Assembly: GCA_024998685.1 (NCBI GenBank)
Contig: JACOEH010000049.1
Location: 1 to 34,665 of the forward strand
Length of the DNA stretch: 34,665 bases
Source of the DNA: Nitrospira sp.
GTDB lineage: Bacteria; Nitrospirota; Nitrospiria; Nitrospirales; Nitrospiraceae
Direction: 5' to 3'
The translations under genes were made by a program, and so were the position numbers. The notes below the pieces were generated by a model. The model was given only the letters and a program-made list of their open reading frames with translations, did no database searches and was not told the DNA's origin. How positions within the stretch are numbered: position 1 is the stretch's first letter; every line of letters starts with the position of its first letter. Positions 25,028 to 34,665 of the stretch are shown here, piece by piece.

Positions 25028-25414
25028 CTATCCCTGCAGCGGCTCCACTCGACGCCCCATTTCATTCACGAACGCTCGTGCCGCCTCAATTCCTGTTTCC
25101 GCCTGCTCACGGCCGATCTCGGCGAACCCGTAATCTCCCTCGGCGCGGTCCTCAAATCCGTCGCGGAGGAGATGAAAGAATCGCTCAGGCACGTCGCCGG
25201 GTTTCACAAAATGCTCTTGAAATGCGGCAATGACACCGGAGTGTTTTGAGCGTCGCACGTCCCGAGTCAAAAGCATGGCTTGCGCCACATAAAACATGGC
25301 GTAGTAGGCCCGCGACACTGCAAAATCGTAATCGTCGTCCTGTAGTAGACGCTCGGCTGCCTTTACGCTTCGCCGCGCTTTGGCCAGGAGACCTGCGATT
25401 TCCTTCCGGCTCAT
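25028..25414 (-). CDS. HEPN-domain protein, HepT-like toxin (intact copy)
   Basis: A 128-residue helical protein of the HEPN family. In MntA-HepT (type VII) pairs, HepT is a ribonuclease toxin that MntA inactivates by adding AMP. The catalytic-type motif R51-x6-H58 is present in LTRDVRRSKHSG. Other family segments are [20 protein letters not shown] and KPGDVPERFFHLL. Its ATG overlaps the stop of the upstream nucleotidyltransferase (ATGA, 25411-25414), which fixes the start and shows coupling. A paralog with the same length but three lesions lies at 30042-30427. The pair sits immediately beyond the trailer end of the CRISPR array. Confidence 0.85.
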   Translation of the reverse strand: MSRKEIAGLLAKARRSVKAAERLLQDDDYDFAVSRAYYAMFYVAQAMLLTRDVRRSKHSGVIAAFQEHFVKPGDVPERFFHLLRDGFEDRAEGDYGFAEIGREQAETGIEAARAFVNEMGRRVEPLQG

Positions 25415-25752
25415 AACGGAATGCCTTCTTCGTGGATGTTCGCAAAAATCGCAAAATCCCCACGCTCGCGAGCCTGTGCGCAATCCATCATGAGAATTGA
25501 AATGACAAGGCTGTGCTTCAAGGAGACCTCGCCGGTCAGCCACCGAATGCGGCGCTTGATTGCCAGATCCAGCCGCTCTATATCGAGTTTGAGCATGACA
25601 TCCATATCCGAATCAGGCTCCGCATCACCGCGCGCGCGTGAGCCAAAGAGTGTCCACCGCATGGACACGCCGGGCAATGCCTCGCGAACATCTCGCTGAA
25701 GATCGGCAAGCGCCGCCCGTTCCTGCGCGGAGAGTGCCTCAATTGTCCGCAT
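25411..25752 (-). CDS. MNT-domain nucleotidyltransferase, MntA-like antitoxin
   Basis: A 113-residue minimal nucleotidyltransferase. The active-site signature is GSRARGDAEPDSDMD (G37-S38 with metal ligands D49 and D51). Enzymes of this kind AMPylate the HEPN partner to neutralise it. It overlaps the HEPN gene by 4 bp. Its start lies only about 15 bp from the degenerate last repeat of the CRISPR array, so there is little room for its own promoter and transcription may come through the array. The protein is closely similar to the MNT at 30424-30765: TLFGSRARGDA, SDMD, LDIERL and ARERGDF match. Confidence 0.85.
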   Translation of the reverse strand: MRTIEALSAQERAALADLQRDVREALPGVSMRWTLFGSRARGDAEPDSDMDVMLKLDIERLDLAIKRRIRWLTGEVSLKHSLVISILMMDCAQARERGDFAIFANIHEEGIPL

Positions 25753-25767
25753 AGAATCCTTGCACGT

Positions 25768-27336
25768 GTTTCAATGGGGCCACGGCATCTCAGCCATGGA
25801 AATTATCATGGAACATGATCCGGTGTCGCAAGAGATTTCGGCTTCAATGGGGCCACGGCATTTCAGCCGTGGAATTGCGCAGCGGGCGAACTGAGAACCA
25901 CATCGTTAGAACCGGCTTCAATGGGGCCACGGCATTTCAGCCGTGGAATTAGAGAGGGCGCGACCGTTTATTCGGTCTGAAGTGCCCGCTTCAATGGGGC
26001 CACGGCATTTCAGCCGTGGAATTAGGGTGAGCGCTACCTGAACGGCACGGTGATCAAGTGGCTTCAATGGGGCCACGGCATTTCAGCCGTGGAATTGGTA
26101 GGGCCAGATAGAAATGAGTGTGCGGGGCAAAGGCTTCAATGGGGCCACGGCATTTCAGCCGTGGAATTTGTGATGGCTGGAAGGCGCTCGCCGATCGGTA
26201 CTGTCGCTTCAATGGGGCCACGGCATTTCAGCCGTGGAATTCTCGCGGTTGTGATGGAGACACTTGCGGCCCCCGCCGCTTCAATGGGGCCACGGCATTT
26301 CAGCCGTGGAATTAAGCCGTCGGGCCAGCGGCACGCAGTCAGGTACTCCGCGGCTTCAATGGGGCCACGGCATTTCAGCCGTGGAATTCCCGAATATGGC
26401 GGCCAATAAGAACACTTCGATGAAGGGCTTCAATGGGGCCACGGCATTTCAGCCGTGGAATTCACCGTTTCGGAGCTCAGCACTGGGTTGTTTTATGGTG
26501 GCTTCAATGGGGCCACGGCATTTCAGCCGTGGAATTACAGACCCTTCAAGCCGATTTCACGTTCGCATCTCCCGCTTCAATGGGGCCACGGCATTTCAGC
26601 CGTGGAATTCCTTAGCATTTGCTCGAACCCACGCCAATACCGCAGGACGCTTCAATGGGGCCACGGCATTTCAGCCGTGGAATTCGAAATGCTGAACCCC
26701 CACATGATCCGGCGTGAGCCGCTTCAATGGGGCCACGGCATTTCAGCCGTGGAATTCGTTGTCACGAAGTTCATCAGCAACGTAGGAGCAGAGCTTCAAT
26801 GGGGCCACGGCATTTCAGCCGTGGAATTGGGGCTCTCGACCGGCGTGATGCGCTGCGGCCCACGGCTTCAATGGGGCCACGGCATTTCAGCCGTGGAATT
26901 CGCGACGATTTGGATCTGGAAGGGCAGTTGGATATCGCTTCAATGGGGCCACGGCATTTCAGCCGTGGAATTCCCCCATAATCACGAGATCAGTATCGTC
27001 GGAATGCACGCTTCAATGGGGCCACGGCATTTCAGCCGTGGAATTGAAGCATCAGACCTCGTACAGGCCGGGAAGCTCGAGCTTCAATGGGGCCACGGCA
27101 TTTCAGCCGTGGAATTGATGCGGGTCATTCGTAGAGGGAGCCACGGCATGAAGTCGCTTCAATGGGGCCACGGCATTTCAGCCGTGGAATTTCGCCGCCG
27201 CCGTGATGCTGCGAGAAGAACTGAAGGGCTTCAATGGGGCCACGGCATTTCAGCCGTGGAATTATTACGTTGGCAACCCCAAAGGGCCACGACGACAGCG
27301 GCTTCAATGGGGCCACGGCATTTCAGCCGTGGAATT
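25768..27336 (-). CRISPR. CRISPR array, 22 repeats and 21 spacers
   Basis: Repeats of 36 bp recur with starts at 25768, 25841, 25915, 25988, 26061, 26133, 26206, 26278, 26353, 26427, 26501, 26574, 26649, 26721, 26793, 26865, 26937, 27010, 27081, 27156, 27228 and 27301. Spacers are 35-39 bp. On the plus strand the repeat starts GCTTCAATGGGG and ends GCCGTGGAATT; CCACGGC and GCCGTGG form a 7-bp hairpin around ATTTCA. The repeat at 25768 has four or so mismatches and is the trailer-end copy, so transcription is inferred to run on the minus strand from a leader next to cas2. In that sense the repeat ends ATTGAAGC, similar to the common ATTGAAAC 3' end. All other repeats look identical. ORFs through the array are artefacts of the repeat. 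Confidence 0.98.
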
Positions 27337-27549
27337 GGCTCCTGGGAAAGTGCGCAGAAGACCAGCATCTCTGGCGCACCTTGCGAGCGCTGGTTTCAAG
27401 ACAACAGGCTTGTCCGTTCATCGAACCGGCGTCACCTCCTTTCCAGGCACGATCTTCCTTGTTCGTGCTGATCGTTCGCTGTTCTTTGTCGCGAGCGCTG
27501 CCCGCTTCGTCCTCACCATTCGAGCGCTCGCACGGATGCCAAGCCATGA
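27337..27549 (-). promoter_or_regulatory. CRISPR leader region
   Basis: A 213-bp non-coding stretch between the cas2 stop and the first (leader-end) repeat. It contains three GAGCGCT-type motifs: GCGAGCGCTG at 27383 and 27491, and CGAGCGCTCG, a perfect palindrome, at 27521. These could bind Cas1-Cas2 or a host factor during spacer integration. No -10/-35 pair is clear on the minus strand. Leader identity follows from array polarity. Confidence 0.6.
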
Positions 27550-27840
27550 TCACAAGACCCGTGGCCTGCGTTCCTCCATTTCTGCCTTGAGCCCCAACGA
27601 CTCCATTCGCTTCACCGGATTGGACTCCGTTGCACCCAGGTCGATGATGAGCACCTGATCTTCCGTGTGATGAATGATCTCCGTCAAGGCCTCCTTCATC
27701 CTGACCAGATCGATCTCGGGCAAATCGCACTGAAACACCGAGAGCTGCAAATGTGCGCCGAACCCCTTCATGGTCTTGAAGACGCGCCGCAGGCGTTTTG
27801 GGTCCGCAATATCGTAGGTCACGAGATAGTGGCGTCGCAA
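27550..27840 (-). CDS. cas2: CRISPR-associated endoribonuclease/integrase subunit Cas2
   Basis: A 96-residue Cas2. Cas2 dimers bridge two Cas1 dimers in the spacer-integration complex. The ferredoxin-like fold is visible: RRHYLVTYDIADPKRLRRVF at the N-terminus with the conserved Asp (D10), VFQCDL in the second strand, and a closing ILIIDLG-like strand (VLIIDLGATE). The start is taken as the TTG at 27840, 5 nt after a GGTGA sequence at the end of cas4-cas1. An ATG further upstream (27927) would overlap cas1 by 83 bp and add a non-Cas2 sequence. It is translationally adjacent to cas4-cas1 and precedes the leader. Confidence 0.93.
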   Translation of the reverse strand: MRRHYLVTYDIADPKRLRRVFKTMKGFGAHLQLSVFQCDLPEIDLVRMKEALTEIIHHTEDQVLIIDLGATESNPVKRMESLGLKAEMEERRPRVL

Positions 27841-27844
27841 GGGG

Positions 27845-29545
27845 TCACCGCGTGATAAAGGCCGGAAACTCTGGGATTTCGCCCAAGAGATACCGTCCGA
27901 GCAATCGAGCCTGCACTTCCAGCACACGACGATAGCTGATCTGGTAGCCGAACACCGGATGGGTGATGTCTTGCCCCATACGCCGTTCGTAGGTTTCGAT
28001 CAACCGACGACGGCCGTCCGGAGTCAGTGTGACCGACCCCATCCGCTCGAACCAATCGCTCTGTCGAATTTCCCCGTTGTTGATGGCGGTCAGTACGGCG
28101 GAATCCGCGATGAGAGGGCGGAATTCTTCCATCATGTCCAAGGCCAACGCCGGTCGTCCATATCGAGGCTGATGATAAAACCCCAAATAGGGATCGAGTC
28201 CCACGCTATGCAACGTGACCGTCCATTCCCGCGCCAATATGGAATACAGCAGCGAGAGCATCGCATTCACCGGATCGCGCGGCGGTCGGCGGTTGCGACC
28301 GTCAAAATCGAAGCGCGCACAGGGCTCGGCTTCTTTCAACATGCCCGCAAACTCCGAGAAGTATCGCCGAGCCGCGGTTCCTTCGATGCCAAGCAACGTC
28401 TCCAGCGAATTCACCGCGCCCGCCTGCACCTGGTCACGCTTCAAATCTATGATGATGGTTTCCGGCGCGGCGCGATGATTCCTCCGGAGCAACGTCCTAC
28501 AGTTGGCGATTTTGGCTTGCACGAACCGGCGCGCCAACACCAGGCATCGTTCAGAATCGGCTGCGACGGCATACTGGCGTCGCCGGAGATCGATATGTTT
28601 GTGTGGAAGACCGATAGTGATGCCGTAAAACCATCCGCCGCTGGAACAGTAGACTAAAGGAATATTCCGCTTGCACAACTCTTGGATGACTTGGGTGCTC
28701 GCCTGGACACTGCCGTACAGGACGACTTGCGAGGTTTCGATGAGTCGGGCTTCCCCGATGACGGCATCATGATCCTTGACTTTGAGACATTCCCCATCTT
28801 TGCTCAGCCTGGCGCCCGGTGTTTGCACATGCAGAGGCAAAGCGTCGTCGTTGCCCGGCACCAATTTGCGAAGCGCCGGCGCTTCTCCCTCGTGCGGCTC
28901 GCGCAACCATCCCACTTCATCCGGCAGGCAGAGTCCCACCAGGGAACAACGCGGACACTTTGGGCTATCCACCAGCGGCGGCGGGGCAACAGTCGCCCCC
29001 GCCATCGCCCGCATATCGTGAAGCAGCTCATGCGTTCGCGCGACCAACTCCTCGTCGAACGGCACCTCGACCCGCTCGCGCGATGCAACGAAATAGAGCA
29101 CCCCTCGTTCGCAGACGAAGCCCTGTTCACGAAGCAATAACCCTTGCACACAGAGTTGCACACGTTCCGGTTCCCACGCGCCTTGTGGCGTATGAGGACG
29201 TTTGCCGCGTTTGTAATCAACGGGAACGACCGTCGGTCCCTCACCTTCCACCAAGTCGATCTTCGCCGTCACCCCGAGACGCTCTGAGGACAACCAGACA
29301 GAACGCTGATGAATCGTAGTTTCTTCCGATTTCCGCTCATCGCCCTGGCGTGGTTTTCTCGCCGGTGCCTGATCCACCCGTCGGTGATGAAACCGCCCCT
29401 CCATCGTCTCCGCGTTGTCGGCGAACTCGCCATCCACCCATTCAAAATAGGCCAACCTGGGGCAATAGGCGAATTCGTTCACCATCCGCGCGGGGAGCAA
29501 CGGAAGGTCGCCCCCCGTGGACGGTTGTTGTGATTCAGACTCCAT
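27845..29545 (-). CDS. cas4-cas1: Cas4-Cas1 fusion protein
   Basis: A 566-residue fusion typical of type I-G (formerly I-U) systems. The Cas4 part (1 to about 215) is a RecB-like nuclease that trims prespacers and selects PAM: Cys28 with Cys197, Cys200 and Cys206 are positioned to hold an iron-sulfur cluster, and D97, D110 and K112 (VDYKRG) form the nuclease motif. The Cas1 part (about 235-566) is the integrase, with E388 (LLGIEGTAARRYF), H458 (DPYLGFYH) and D470 (ALALDMMEEFRP) as the metal-binding residues. All catalytic residues seen are intact. The ribosome-binding site AAGGAG is only 2 nt from the ATG. A perfect TTGACA (29582-29587 on the complement) lies upstream, without a clear -10. 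It is followed by cas2 with 4 bp between stop and start. Confidence 0.96.
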   Translation of the reverse strand: MESESQQPSTGGDLPLLPARMVNEFAYCPRLAYFEWVDGEFADNAETMEGRFHHRRVDQAPARKPRQGDERKSEETTIHQRSVWLSSERLGVTAKIDLVEGEGPTVVPVDYKRGKRPHTPQGAWEPERVQLCVQGLLLREQGFVCERGVLYFVASRERVEVPFDEELVARTHELLHDMRAMAGATVAPPPLVDSPKCPRCSLVGLCLPDEVGWLREPHEGEAPALRKLVPGNDDALPLHVQTPGARLSKDGECLKVKDHDAVIGEARLIETSQVVLYGSVQASTQVIQELCKRNIPLVYCSSGGWFYGITIGLPHKHIDLRRRQYAVAADSERCLVLARRFVQAKIANCRTLLRRNHRAAPETIIIDLKRDQVQAGAVNSLETLLGIEGTAARRYFSEFAGMLKEAEPCARFDFDGRNRRPPRDPVNAMLSLLYSILAREWTVTLHSVGLDPYLGFYHQPRYGRPALALDMMEEFRPLIADSAVLTAINNGEIRQSDWFERMGSVTLTPDGRRRLIETYERRMGQDITHPVFGYQISYRRVLEVQARLLGRYLLGEIPEFPAFITR

Positions 29546-29884: not shown

Positions 29885-29995
29885 CCAAGCTGCCGCAGGT
29901 CTCTCATGAACGCGTCGTGAGAGCCCTCACACGCGCAGGCTTTGAGGTCCATCGTCACATATTGCTTCAGGTCTGGAGTAGCAGGATGGTCCGAA
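29881..29995 (+). pseudogene. hicA: Truncated HicA toxin gene
   Basis: The first 26 codons (MTKLPQVSHERVVRALTRAG then FEVHRH) are a clear HicA N-terminus. The next expected residues, the G-S-H catalytic histidine strand, are absent. About 90 bp are missing, and the sequence resumes with a weak match to the HicA C-terminal helix (RSGVAGWSESL) in another frame. The toxin should therefore be inactive. The plus-strand frame that runs on is not a meaningful gene and overlaps the HEPN pseudogene on the opposite strand. Confidence 0.7.
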
Positions 29996-30041
29996 TCTCT
30001 GCCTCCGACGTCTTTCCTCATTCATCCAGGATGGCATTCTG

Positions 30042-30765
<724 letters not shown>

Positions 30766-30904
30766 GTGTTCCTCCGGGTAACCGTTCCAACCCGTACCAC
30801 AACCCACTTGCTGTGGATATCACGCATCACACGGTTTTCTCCTCATAGCTCACCCTGCGCCGGCTTCGTCCACCGGGACGAACTGTTCGAGGCCGAAGTG
30901 CCGC

Positions 30905-31102
30905 CTACTTCAAACTCAATTGCCGCTTCACGCTCGCCAGCGGCACCGTGCGCTTCCGACCTTCCGCCTTTTTCGCTTTGCGCAGTTGCAGCAAGTCTTC
31001 CATATCCTCAAGCCGCTCCTTGAGCGAAAGAAACTCTTCATACGGCAGTACGGCGAATTGTCTTGTGCCTGCCAGACGAACGCGACATGTATGGTCATTC
31101 AT
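30905..31102 (-). CDS. Phd/YefM-like antitoxin or similar small protein
   Basis: A 65-residue protein. LPYEEFLSLKERLEDMEDLL followed by a basic KAKKAEGRKR and PLASVKRQLSLK resembles the C-terminal toxin-binding part of Phd/YefM-type antitoxins. Its ATG overlaps the stop of the nucleotidyltransferase gene upstream (ATGA, 31099-31102), so the two are coupled. Phd-type antitoxins normally pair with Doc or RelE toxins, not with a nucleotidyltransferase, and no such toxin follows: 30766-30904 contains only a 22-residue frame. The pairing may be new, or the real toxin may have been lost. Family assignment is tentative. Confidence 0.6.
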   Translation of the reverse strand: MNDHTCRVRLAGTRQFAVLPYEEFLSLKERLEDMEDLLQLRKAKKAEGRKRTVPLASVKRQLSLK

Positions 31103-31431
31103 AATTCCACTCCTGTCTCGACGATTTCCTGAATGAACTGATCTCCACGGGCCAGGCGCTCTGAAAGTTCTTCCGGAGTCAAGACGATCGGGGCAAGAGA
31201 CAATTCCCGGCTGATGTCTCTGACTACGGCCAAGGCTGACCCCATCCGTTCATAAAAACGTTCTGTCGTCGGCGCCACCACCAAGAGATCGATGTCGCTG
31301 TGCTCAGTCGGTGTGCCTCGCGCGAACGATCCATACAGTAGCACCTGCTCGGCCCGATAGCGCTTCCGTAGCCGGTCCGCAATCGCCTTCAATTGTTCAC
31401 GCGCGACCGAGCCCGAAGTCGCCGTACGCAT
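31099..31431 (-). CDS. MNT-domain nucleotidyltransferase
   Basis: A 110-residue minimal nucleotidyltransferase with GGGAGGG before the ATG. The signature is GSFARGTPTEHSDIDLL (G34-S35, metal ligands D46 and D48). It is of a different subfamily from the two MntA-like copies and lacks a HEPN neighbour. The partner gene is instead the 65-residue protein at 30905-31102, with which it overlaps by 4 bp. It lies 144 bp downstream of csb2 on the same strand and may be read from the cas promoter. The substrate is unknown; by analogy it would transfer a nucleotide to a toxin or RNA. Confidence 0.85.
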   Translation of the reverse strand: MRTATSGSVAREQLKAIADRLRKRYRAEQVLLYGSFARGTPTEHSDIDLLVVAPTTERFYERMGSALAVVRDISRELSLAPIVLTPEELSERLARGDQFIQEIVETGVEL

Positions 31432-31575: not shown

Positions 31576-33036
31576 TCATGACCAAGGCATCATCAACCCA
31601 AATCCTGCATAGCGTCCGCGCCCAACGACAAGCGGTCCAATGACCGGCTTATTGAATGTAATCTCCGCATGAAAACGTTGTGTATCTGACAGATATCCCT
31701 TTACCCGGTAATCGAGAGCATGGCTTGTCTTGGGAACAATGGGGCCCCTGAATGTAGCGATGGAGTCGATGCTCTCGCTCTTTATGCCCAATCGATTCAG
31801 AGCGGCGACAATTAGCGCGGCTTCGGAACGACCTCGGCGCCTATGTCCAGGAAGAATAATCGGTGTGACTGTCCGCCATGTGTTTGATGGGGATTCATGC
31901 GAACCTAGAAAGAAATTCAAAACGGAGTCTGACAGAGGATCTTCCACTGGTTGAAACCGGCCGATGGGTGTCCCGCCATCTTTGAGTGCACCCGACGTTA
32001 ATCGTTGAACATCGGTGAAAAGCTCACGGGCTTTTCCATCTGTACACCCATAGCCAATGACCAGCACCCTTCGGATATAGCCATCAGCATTGAATGAACG
32101 ATCTAGGCTCGGAATCGGAACGTAGCCAAAATGATCGCCGTCGTACGACCGAACCTTTTCGGATGGCCCTATCTGTGGCTCATGACCGGCAACCAATCGG
32201 CATACCAAATCCTTCCCATAATAGTTAACGAAGGATTGCTGCTTAAAGTGTTCGAGAATGGCATGTCGAACCATAGCGCTGGCTTGGCGAAAATCTCGTG
32301 GTTCAAACTTTAACCGCGCATCGTCCAACTGCCATAACTCAAAAAGTGCTAGCGGCGTATCAAAACTGATGAACCTGGAAGGCCGATAATCAACGCTATG
32401 AGAGGGGATCGGGTAGTCTAAGGGTGAATCGCCACTGAGGACACCTCGATAGCGCTTCTGATAGGCCCTTAACGCCCCCCTATTAGGAGAATGCCATTTC
32501 CCACCAATCCGTTTCGTCGGTTCAAAGAGACAGCGGCTTTGGCTAACCTGTGGTGACGGAGTTTCGACATCAGCCACTCGCCCATGTGCATAAACAATGT
32601 CTTGGTGTTGACCTAGATGAGTAACCAAAGAGGCTATCGCGCAGATCACGCTGGCATTTGTCCGCGCATCCTCGTCATCCGCAACCTCCCAGCGATAAAT
32701 AACTCGTTCGCTACCGATGAGGACCTTTGCCAACATCGGTTTCGGCGTCCTAATATGATCCAGCATGTCGTCATTGTTCGGAAGGTAGTTTGTATACTCC
32801 TTACCCTCTTCAGTTACCTGACCTATTTCGATTGTCGGTGGTCTTAGGCTTTCGAGCCACTTCAGCGCACGGTCGCGAACGTCCTGATTGACGATACCGT
32901 AGGCCCCTCGATGGCTGCCCGCAATTAATGCCTGAAATAGACGGAGGGGAGATGGTGGCCATTCAAGAACCCTTTCGCCCCGTCGTCCATGATAGCGTCT
33001 GGATGGAAACGTCACCGATAGACTAAGCTCCATCAT
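31576..33036 (-). CDS. csb2: Type I-G Csb2 (Cas5-Cas6 fusion)
   Basis: A 486-residue protein of the Csb2 (GSU0054) family. In type I-G systems this protein combines a Cas5-like backbone subunit with a Cas6-like crRNA endonuclease. Visible segments are LSVTFPSRRYHGRRGERVLE then WPPSPLRLFQALIAGSHRGA at the N-terminus, YTNYLPNNDDMLDH, and a C-terminal GPLVVGRGRYAGFGLMMPW, the glycine-rich loop expected of the RAMP fold. The start at 33036 is preceded by GGAG 8 nt upstream; a second ATG follows directly. It lies 28 bp downstream of csb1. With it, crRNA maturation could still occur. The next gene is not a cas gene but a nucleotidyltransferase. Confidence 0.92.
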   Translation of the reverse strand: MMELSLSVTFPSRRYHGRRGERVLEWPPSPLRLFQALIAGSHRGAYGIVNQDVRDRALKWLESLRPPTIEIGQVTEEGKEYTNYLPNNDDMLDHIRTPKPMLAKVLIGSERVIYRWEVADDEDARTNASVICAIASLVTHLGQHQDIVYAHGRVADVETPSPQVSQSRCLFEPTKRIGGKWHSPNRGALRAYQKRYRGVLSGDSPLDYPIPSHSVDYRPSRFISFDTPLALFELWQLDDARLKFEPRDFRQASAMVRHAILEHFKQQSFVNYYGKDLVCRLVAGHEPQIGPSEKVRSYDGDHFGYVPIPSLDRSFNADGYIRRVLVIGYGCTDGKARELFTDVQRLTSGALKDGGTPIGRFQPVEDPLSDSVLNFFLGSHESPSNTWRTVTPIILPGHRRRGRSEAALIVAALNRLGIKSESIDSIATFRGPIVPKTSHALDYRVKGYLSDTQRFHAEITFNKPVIGPLVVGRGRYAGFGLMMPWS

Positions 33037-33064: not shown

Positions 33065-34306
33065 CTACTTGCTCCCTTTGCCAGACTTCTTCTTGCCCTC
33101 CTTTTTCAGCCTCTCTACCTCCTCTCTCACTTTCTTGACATCGAAATCTATGGTTTGCCCCGCACCGACACCGAAATCTTTGGCCGTTTTATCGGCATAC
33201 TTCAGAACGTGCTCCAAGCACCATTCAATGCTTTCTGGTTTAGACTTAGAATCGGTGTAGACCACGCAAGCCGTGGGATCACCACGACGAATGAGCAAAC
33301 AACCTTCACGCAGTGCGTAATGTGTCTGTGACCGTGCTGCCACGAGCGCCAACCCCAAAATATAACGGCGTAGTTTGAGCGTAGTTCCTGGATCAATCTC
33401 CTGAGGGTTACCGTCACGGTCGGTTTTTGTCACAGCCAGTGAGCGTAGATTCACCAAATTAATCTCGGTTCGTCGAATAATCTGTCCGTACACCCGCACT
33501 CCACCATGCGTGTCGACCGCCGGAGCAGCACGCAGACCGAGTTTTGATAACGGATCTTTGCCGTCTGCAGCCTTGCCGGATCCTTCATCAACACTCTGCG
33601 ACTGCTCTTCGCCTTCCGGCACTTCATCACCTAAACCGATCAGGGACGGATCGAAGGCCGGATTGAATTGCGCGGAGCGTTTGACAACAGCAACATTTGT
33701 GGCGCGTATGGTGGAAGACAAGAGTCGTCCGTATTTGAACATTGTAGTTTCAGGCCGTGAATCCCAGAAACCAAACACTAAAGAGGTTGGAGACAGCTTC
33801 GCCAATGGCTCCGCGTTTCCATTATCCCTCATTGCTTTGATCGCCTCTGTGACATTATCGCGAAGGTTGAAAAACCTGACTGCGCCGTCTGCAATGCGAT
33901 GGCCAATGTCCAACAAATTGACCCTTATTGTCCTATCTTCGGCATTTACCTTTGTTTTCATGGTTACTTCGATTTGTGGCACCAATGAAGACAAGGAAGC
34001 TTTTTTGAAGCAAGACTCCATTCGATTGGCCTGCGAGCCAATGCTATCAATCAAGCATGTATTGACCTCCTCGCCAGGTTGTGCAGCCTGTGACTCTTTA
34101 TCTTTTCGTAGCGTGTCAATTCGATAGGGATGCTCGGCCTTTCTCACCGCAAAGGTAGGTGGGAAAATGATCGCATCTTTTCCTTCTGATGGCTCCAAGA
34201 CTTCCGAGAGGGTAATTGCGGCTGGAAGTCCGGCATCCTTCAGCCAGTCCACCGACTTGATGTACTTATCATAAGCTTCGACCTGCACATTCATCTCATC
34301 GCTCAT
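33065..34306 (-). CDS. csb1: Type I-G Csb1 (Cas7 backbone protein)
   Basis: A 413-residue Cas7-family protein of the Csb1 (GSU0053) type. It would form the helical backbone of the Cascade complex on the crRNA. Family marks are the signature DSIGSQANRME (87-97), LVFGFWDSRPETTMFKYGRL, a GLGDEVPEGEEQSQSVDEGS insertion, and a Lys-rich C-terminal tail (RLKKEGKKKSGKGSK). GAGGAGG lies 8 nt before the ATG. The upstream partial gene overlaps its start by 4 bp (ATGA). It is the first complete cas gene of the minus-strand operon in this window, followed by csb2. Confidence 0.94.
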   Translation of the reverse strand: MSDEMNVQVEAYDKYIKSVDWLKDAGLPAAITLSEVLEPSEGKDAIIFPPTFAVRKAEHPYRIDTLRKDKESQAAQPGEEVNTCLIDSIGSQANRMESCFKKASLSSLVPQIEVTMKTKVNAEDRTIRVNLLDIGHRIADGAVRFFNLRDNVTEAIKAMRDNGNAEPLAKLSPTSLVFGFWDSRPETTMFKYGRLLSSTIRATNVAVVKRSAQFNPAFDPSLIGLGDEVPEGEEQSQSVDEGSGKAADGKDPLSKLGLRAAPAVDTHGGVRVYGQIIRRTEINLVNLRSLAVTKTDRDGNPQEIDPGTTLKLRRYILGLALVAARSQTHYALREGCLLIRRGDPTACVVYTDSKSKPESIEWCLEHVLKYADKTAKDFGVGAGQTIDFDVKKVREEVERLKKEGKKKSGKGSK

Positions 34307-34620
34307 TGTGTTTGCCTCCTCAAAGTTGTCTGGGATGCCATCGTCAGGTTGGAGTACTTGTCTCTCGATGCACGCGCTGACTCCATCGGAAGAACTGTCG
34401 ATTCATCTTCGAAAGCGGCGCAAGATGCCGCTACTCGTGCAAGTGCAACTGGCAATGGGATGGTCCACAAGCCGTATCGAAAGACGGTTCTTTCAATCCA
34501 TCCGCGAGTGGATTGGTTTCCACCGGCTTCAATTGTCCGTTGGGGAAAGAAGTGCTGAGCACCAATGGCCGCAAGCATCTCCGTGATAGGATAGGTTGAG
34601 ACCGCCAGATCTAGGGCGTG
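34303..34620 (-). pseudogene. 3' fragment of an upstream cas gene (csb3/cas8-like), apparently IS-truncated
   Basis: The frame is open from 34620 to a TGA at 34303 and ends by overlapping csb1 (ATGA). Its translation, LDLAVSTYPITEMLAAIGAQ then HFFPQRT, then TVFRYGLWTIPLPVALARVA, reads as a genuine protein C-terminus and resembles the C-terminal part of type I-G Csb3/Cas8 proteins. The family assignment is tentative. Upstream of codon CAC (34618-34620) two TGA codons follow at once, exactly where an IS-like end begins (GGCGTGTCATC). So this is probably the distal piece of a longer cas gene cut by an insertion, whose remainder would lie beyond the window. Confidence 0.65.
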
Positions 34621-34665
34621 TCATCAATTAATTTTCTAGATTCACAACGCCATCGTGTTGTGCTT
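34611..34665. mobile_element. Putative IS end at the window edge
   Basis: CTAG (34611-34614) is followed by GGCGTGTCATCAATTAATTT. It coincides with the abrupt end of the cas-gene reading frame, as expected for an insertion. CTAG is a common IS5-type target. The sequence resembles IS terminal repeats, but the other end and the transposase lie outside the window. Confidence 0.4.

Follow-up and report, generated by a model that had tools for sequence, protein, structure and literature searches.

An IS5-superfamily element splits csb3 in a Nitrospira type I-G CRISPR-Cas locus whose array carries self-matching spacers

A type I-G CRISPR-Cas locus of Nitrospira has its large-subunit gene, csb3, split by an IS, and six of the 21 spacers in its array match the host's own genome. 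We read these together: the IS would have split csb3, Cas8g2 would have been lost and interference switched off, while adaptation by Cas4-Cas1 and Cas2 continued; from the sequence we put the probability of this at roughly 0.8.

The window is the entire contig C77 (34,665 nt) of a Nitrospira sp. MAG of 105 contigs and 4.83 Mb, and it stops inside an IS. The locus, in the order cas3-csb3-csb1-csb2-cas4/cas1-cas2-array, is spread over contigs C74 and C77. Its nearest named relative is in a Nitrospira MAG (record JAICWG01), and the Nitrospira relative G001 has the same gene order with an uninterrupted csb3 at the matching site. Type I-G was formerly called I-U, and the csb gene families are named after Geobacter GSU0051-0054. 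A search for Csb1 on plasmids returned distant I-G systems only. The junction involves the following features:

34303..34614, minus strand: last third of csb3, the gene of the type I-G large subunit Cas8g2; 102 codons and a stop; TIGR04106 positions about 202-255
34611..34614, no strand: target site CTAG, whose second copy adjoins the opposite IS end on C74
34615..34665, plus strand: one end of an IS5-superfamily element with 17-bp TIR GGCGTGTCATCAATTAA; C77 breaks within it; 2 mismatches in 51 against a complete copy in G023

Read on the minus strand, 34303-34614 gives the 102 residues DLAVSTYPITEML...RRQTQ* in frame; the alignment to csb3 of G001 shows 79% identity. The N-terminal two-thirds of csb3 (first 186 codons; TIGR04106 positions 1-203) forms the end of C74, straight after cas3. 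C74 ends in ...GCCAACGAT-CTAG-GGCGTGTCATCAATTAAGCC..., and reverse-complemented C77 starts with ...TTAATTGATGACACGCC-CTAG-ATCTGGCGG...; when the flanks are joined over one CTAG they align with the uninterrupted csb3 of G001 (...GCCAATGATCTAGACCTACCGG...), and the joined halves stay in frame (...AGFSANDL-DLAVSTYPITEML...). The IS ends beside csb3 on the two contigs are the two different (opposite) ends of one element. The original prediction, that a cas gene upstream of csb1 had been cut by an IS, is thus borne out: C74 carries both the second IS end with its CTAG duplication and, past that end and in frame, the gene's 5′ portion, and the fragment, proposed for comparison with Csb3, Csx17 and Cas8 profiles, matches TIGR04106 (Cas8g2/csb3). 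The protein-like frame that it described is a real csb3 frame up to the CTAG junction, although the host-derived length is about 103 codons rather than 106. A chance junction was ruled out by the multi-copy element with identical TIR, the CTAG duplication and the empty site in G001.

Read from its start codon, csb3 now continues for a few codons inside the IS before a stop, which precludes a whole large subunit. A profile search of the genome found no second csb3 and no Csx17; the same Csx17 model does detect Csx17 in sister genomes. The whole large subunit expected of type I-G, be it Csb3/Cas8g2 or Csx17/Cas8g1, is therefore absent, csb3 being split.

That an IS lies to the right of the junction, as had been proposed, follows from the multi-copy TIR and from the transposase in complete sister copies. 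The source genome (G000) has 13 occurrences of the 17-bp terminal repeat, near contig ends and preceded by CTAG or TTAG wherever looked at. Among 147 related genomes the repeat was found in 18 (including G017 and G012). In sister genomes the complete copies measure 853-854 bp (769 bp in one case), are flanked by CTAG, CTAA or TTAG, and encode a DUF4096 plus DDE_Tnp_1 transposase in two frames; one of them (L055) matches PF13340 and PF01609 (IS4/5-type DDE transposase). The IS5 superfamily is marked by TIRs and a fixed short target duplication, here a 17-bp TIR and YTAG-type flanks, also in the complete sister copies. The element resembles other members with a DUF4096/DDE_Tnp_1 transposase in its length of about 850 bp, its two-frame transposase and its short YTAG duplication, and differs in a terminal-repeat sequence confined to one genus of the 24 searched; we take its group to be IS427-like. 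Some genomes of the genus hold a dozen or so copies. The window contains no transposase because the assembly breaks at IS repeats, and since C77 and C74 both break inside the IS, leaving its interior outside the assembly, the insert could exceed a single IS in length. Judged from the orientation of the ends, the transposase of the csb3 insertion should lie antisense to csb3. A further copy of the IS end (L012, G000:C93) sits within the final codons of an Hsp70-like gene, whose C-terminus it shortens or lengthens.

The rest of the locus consists of whole frames that score above their family cut-offs:

33065..34306, minus strand: csb1 (Cas7g), intact, 413 aa; TIGR02570 95 bits, cut-off 38
31576..33036, minus strand: csb2 (Cas5-Cas6 fusion), intact, 486 aa; TIGR02165 201 bits, cut-off 45
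27845..29545, minus strand: cas4-cas1 fusion, intact, 566 aa; NF049935 805 bits, cut-off 560
27550..27927, minus strand: cas2, 125-aa frame with cas2 domain at residues 33-108; TIGR01573 39 bits, cut-off 24.5
Contig C74, directly before the csb3 5′ part: cas3 (Cas3g), intact, 1016 aa; TIGR02621 579 bits, cut-off 400

These scores agree with the earlier view that cas4-cas1, cas2 and csb2 look intact. The view that csb1-csb2 had lost both cas8 and cas3 stands only for the former: whole csb3 is gone, but loss of cas3 was ruled out by the intact gene just upstream of the IS. Values of dN/dS against G001 are 0.165 for cas3, 0.180 and 0.195 for the N- and C-terminal parts of csb3, 0.133 for csb1, 0.151 for csb2 and 0.058 for cas4-cas1. 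The csb3 halves are thus undecayed (near 0.18-0.20, like their neighbours), and the insertion is recent on that scale. With csb1 adjacent to csb2, cas3 upstream (C74), a Cas4-Cas1 fusion plus Cas2 and a TTN PAM, the locus, judged from its sequence features, is a broken member of type I-G by all features except the large subunit. It shares the cas3-csb3-csb1-csb2-cas4/cas1-cas2-array order, the 36-bp repeats and, at the matched protospacers, the TTN PAM of the csb3/Cas8g2 variant, and differs in its IS-split csb3 and an effector without large subunit. Genes for MntA-like nucleotidyltransferases and small partners (HEPN-like by eye) lie at 25028-25752, 29927-30807 and 31099-31431 of the window, flanking the array and sitting between csb2 and cas4-cas1; similar genes occupy the equivalent place in G023.

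The array, with the spacers that match the host genome (numbered from the leader), is as follows:

25770..27336, minus strand: CRISPR array with 21 spacers; 21 identical 36-bp repeats and a degenerate one at the terminus
27337..27549, minus strand: inferred leader side, last repeat to cas2, 157 identities to the same stretch of G001
26389..26426, minus strand: spacer 13, self-target C80:16106-16143, intergenic near smpB, PAM TTT
26463..26500, minus strand: spacer 12, self-target C67:11531-11568, intergenic, PAM TTA
26537..26573, minus strand: spacer 11, self-target C22:18198-18234, gene with carboxypeptidase-regulatory-like domain, PAM TTT
26610..26648, minus strand: spacer 10, self-target C16:27928-27966, no clear gene, PAM TTT
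26757..26792, minus strand: spacer 8, self-target C102:76496-76531, globin gene, PAM TTG
26901..26936, minus strand: spacer 6, self-target C20:101448-101483, NtrY-like histidine kinase gene, PAM TTG

We place the leader at the right end, since the degenerate repeat is at the left, cas2 is at the right and the PAMs are 5′-TTN in that orientation. All six self-matches (spacers 6, 8, 10, 11, 12 and 13) are 100% over the full spacer length, and their targets lie on contigs of 34-176 kb. TTN, the reported type I-G PAM (PMC9638904), precedes each of the six self-protospacers in crRNA sense, for which the chance is 3e-8 with a local TT frequency of 5.6%. The protospacers of spacers 6, 8, 11 and 13 recur across many Nitrospira relatives, mostly at 84-97% identity; being conserved in the genus, they are ordinary chromosome and not mobile DNA. 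Mobile elements as the self-targets were accordingly rejected, given this conservation of four of the six and the NtrY-like kinase, globin and carboxypeptidase-regulatory-like genes among the targets. Searched against phage records, the spacers gave one weak 79% match only, and five non-self spacers gave zero exact matches in IMG/VR.

Three relatives with uninterrupted I-G loci served as controls, and none of their 108 spacers (G064, 40; G023, 29; G039, 39) is a full-spacer self-match, though G039 is 88% complete and a match there could be missed. Csx17 and Cas3 are present in G064 and G039. The G023 locus (G023:C1:144500-151600, L112) has cas3, csb1, csb2 and a member of the Cas3-extension family NF049934 where Csx17 or csb3 is expected; Csx17 was not identified within that stretch. 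A further G039 match, made of 29 bases of CRISPR repeat and 10 of the adjoining spacer, was not counted as a self-match; it is a lone 39-base stretch outside the array (G039:C4:109820-109858; L118, L120). The excess of self-matches here over the relatives has a Fisher p of 7e-6 (computed with 20 spacers), and against the published self-targeting rate of 0.4% (PMC6990116) p is 1.5e-10. The six PAM-flanked self-targeting spacers lend independent support to the original suggestion that interference is probably disabled and adaptation intact.

In the proposed course of events, a YTAG-targeting IS5-superfamily element with 17-bp TIRs, 854 bp long in sister genomes, first jumps into a CTAG of csb3; the CTAG would be duplicated and csb3 cut in two after roughly codon 186. 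An effector without Cas8g2 could not license targets for Cas3, and interference would be off. Cas4-Cas1 and Cas2 would keep adding PAM-selected spacers, pieces of the cell's own chromosome included, and selection would no longer remove the self-spacers. With an active system, any self-spacer should prove lethal (reviewed in PMC6990116), so at most the oldest, spacer 13, can predate the loss; interference would have been lost no later than soon after its gain, as five more would scarcely be survivable with the system active. We infer that no fewer than five acquisitions, and as many as twelve or more, followed the loss. Spacer 13 may have provoked selection of the IS mutant or may have come later; this is one genome. 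The five newest spacers, at the leader end, have no self-match against the host genome, and this counts against the proposed course of events.

Interference may instead have been blocked first by other means, an anti-CRISPR or silencing of the operon, with self-spacers piling up and the IS arriving as a later neutral event. Tolerance of 24 self-spacers through anti-CRISPRs is known in Xanthomonas albilineans (PMC10810201), and the youth of the IS, with csb3 halves undecayed, suits this order of events. So does a self-match in the genome's second CRISPR-Cas system, which is type I-A-like (L119, G000:C22:64000-83000; cas6, cas3, cas8a, cas7, cas5a and cas1, an apparently complete effector gene set) and whose array is built on another repeat, 37 bp long and present 17 times: of its 17 spacers, one matches smc on C41 at 100%, so part of the self-spacer excess could be a property of the strain. 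The IS alone is enough, however, and a further cause is unneeded; we consider a prior block unlikely, if the most serious competitor. Far less probable is that the split is an artefact of assembly or binning, with C74 and C77 coming from different strains or not adjoining. The MAG is in 105 contigs that break at this IS, which would favour such an error, but the IS ends are opposite, the 4-bp duplication is identical, and the halves are complementary in frame and in G001 order; C77 retains the gene order found beside the array in G001, and the six exact self-matches tie the array to the source strain or a near-identical one. Least credible of all is a Cas8g2 working in two pieces (N-terminal 186 residues plus a C-terminal fragment from an internal ATG at 34578) so that interference or target binding persists: both halves are still open, the C-terminal part does have that ATG and internal cas8 translation is known in types I-B, I-C and I-D, but no internally encoded subunit was seen in a type I-G study (PMC9638904 for both), the IS lies between the fragments and probably keeps their transcription apart as well, and six unmutated TTN-flanked self-targets argue against active targeting.

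Loss of interference through the split csb3 thus remains our preferred reading, and it has precedents. Lactobacillus acidophilus NCFM (PMC6990116) likewise has six genome-targeting spacers and a broken interference module, but it has lost the whole cas cassette, while the Nitrospira locus has a single broken gene, csb3, and keeps intact adaptation genes. The type I-C and I-F1 arrays of X. albilineans (PMC10810201) also hold many self-targeting spacers; its cas genes are intact and anti-CRISPRs block Cas3, whereas here the large-subunit gene is disrupted. Self-spacers accumulating where interference is lost and adaptation spared had been proposed as a possible exception (PMC6990116). In the Nitrospira-specific literature we found nothing on point. 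Inactivation of cas genes and tolerated self-targeting are already known, and what we have here is a clean, datable natural instance in type I-G and no new kind of system.

The lesion, adaptation genes that are intact and a series of self-spacers with the correct PAM, in acquisition order, come together in one genome. We lean, by a small measure, towards seeing in this native I-G locus an adaptation-only recorder, which after losing Cas8g2 would have acquired a minimum of five PAM-correct spacers, and as many as twelve or more, sampling the host chromosome, with the order of the array dating the loss. For type I-G, the array offers a natural set of spacers that Cas4-Cas1 acquired without selection.
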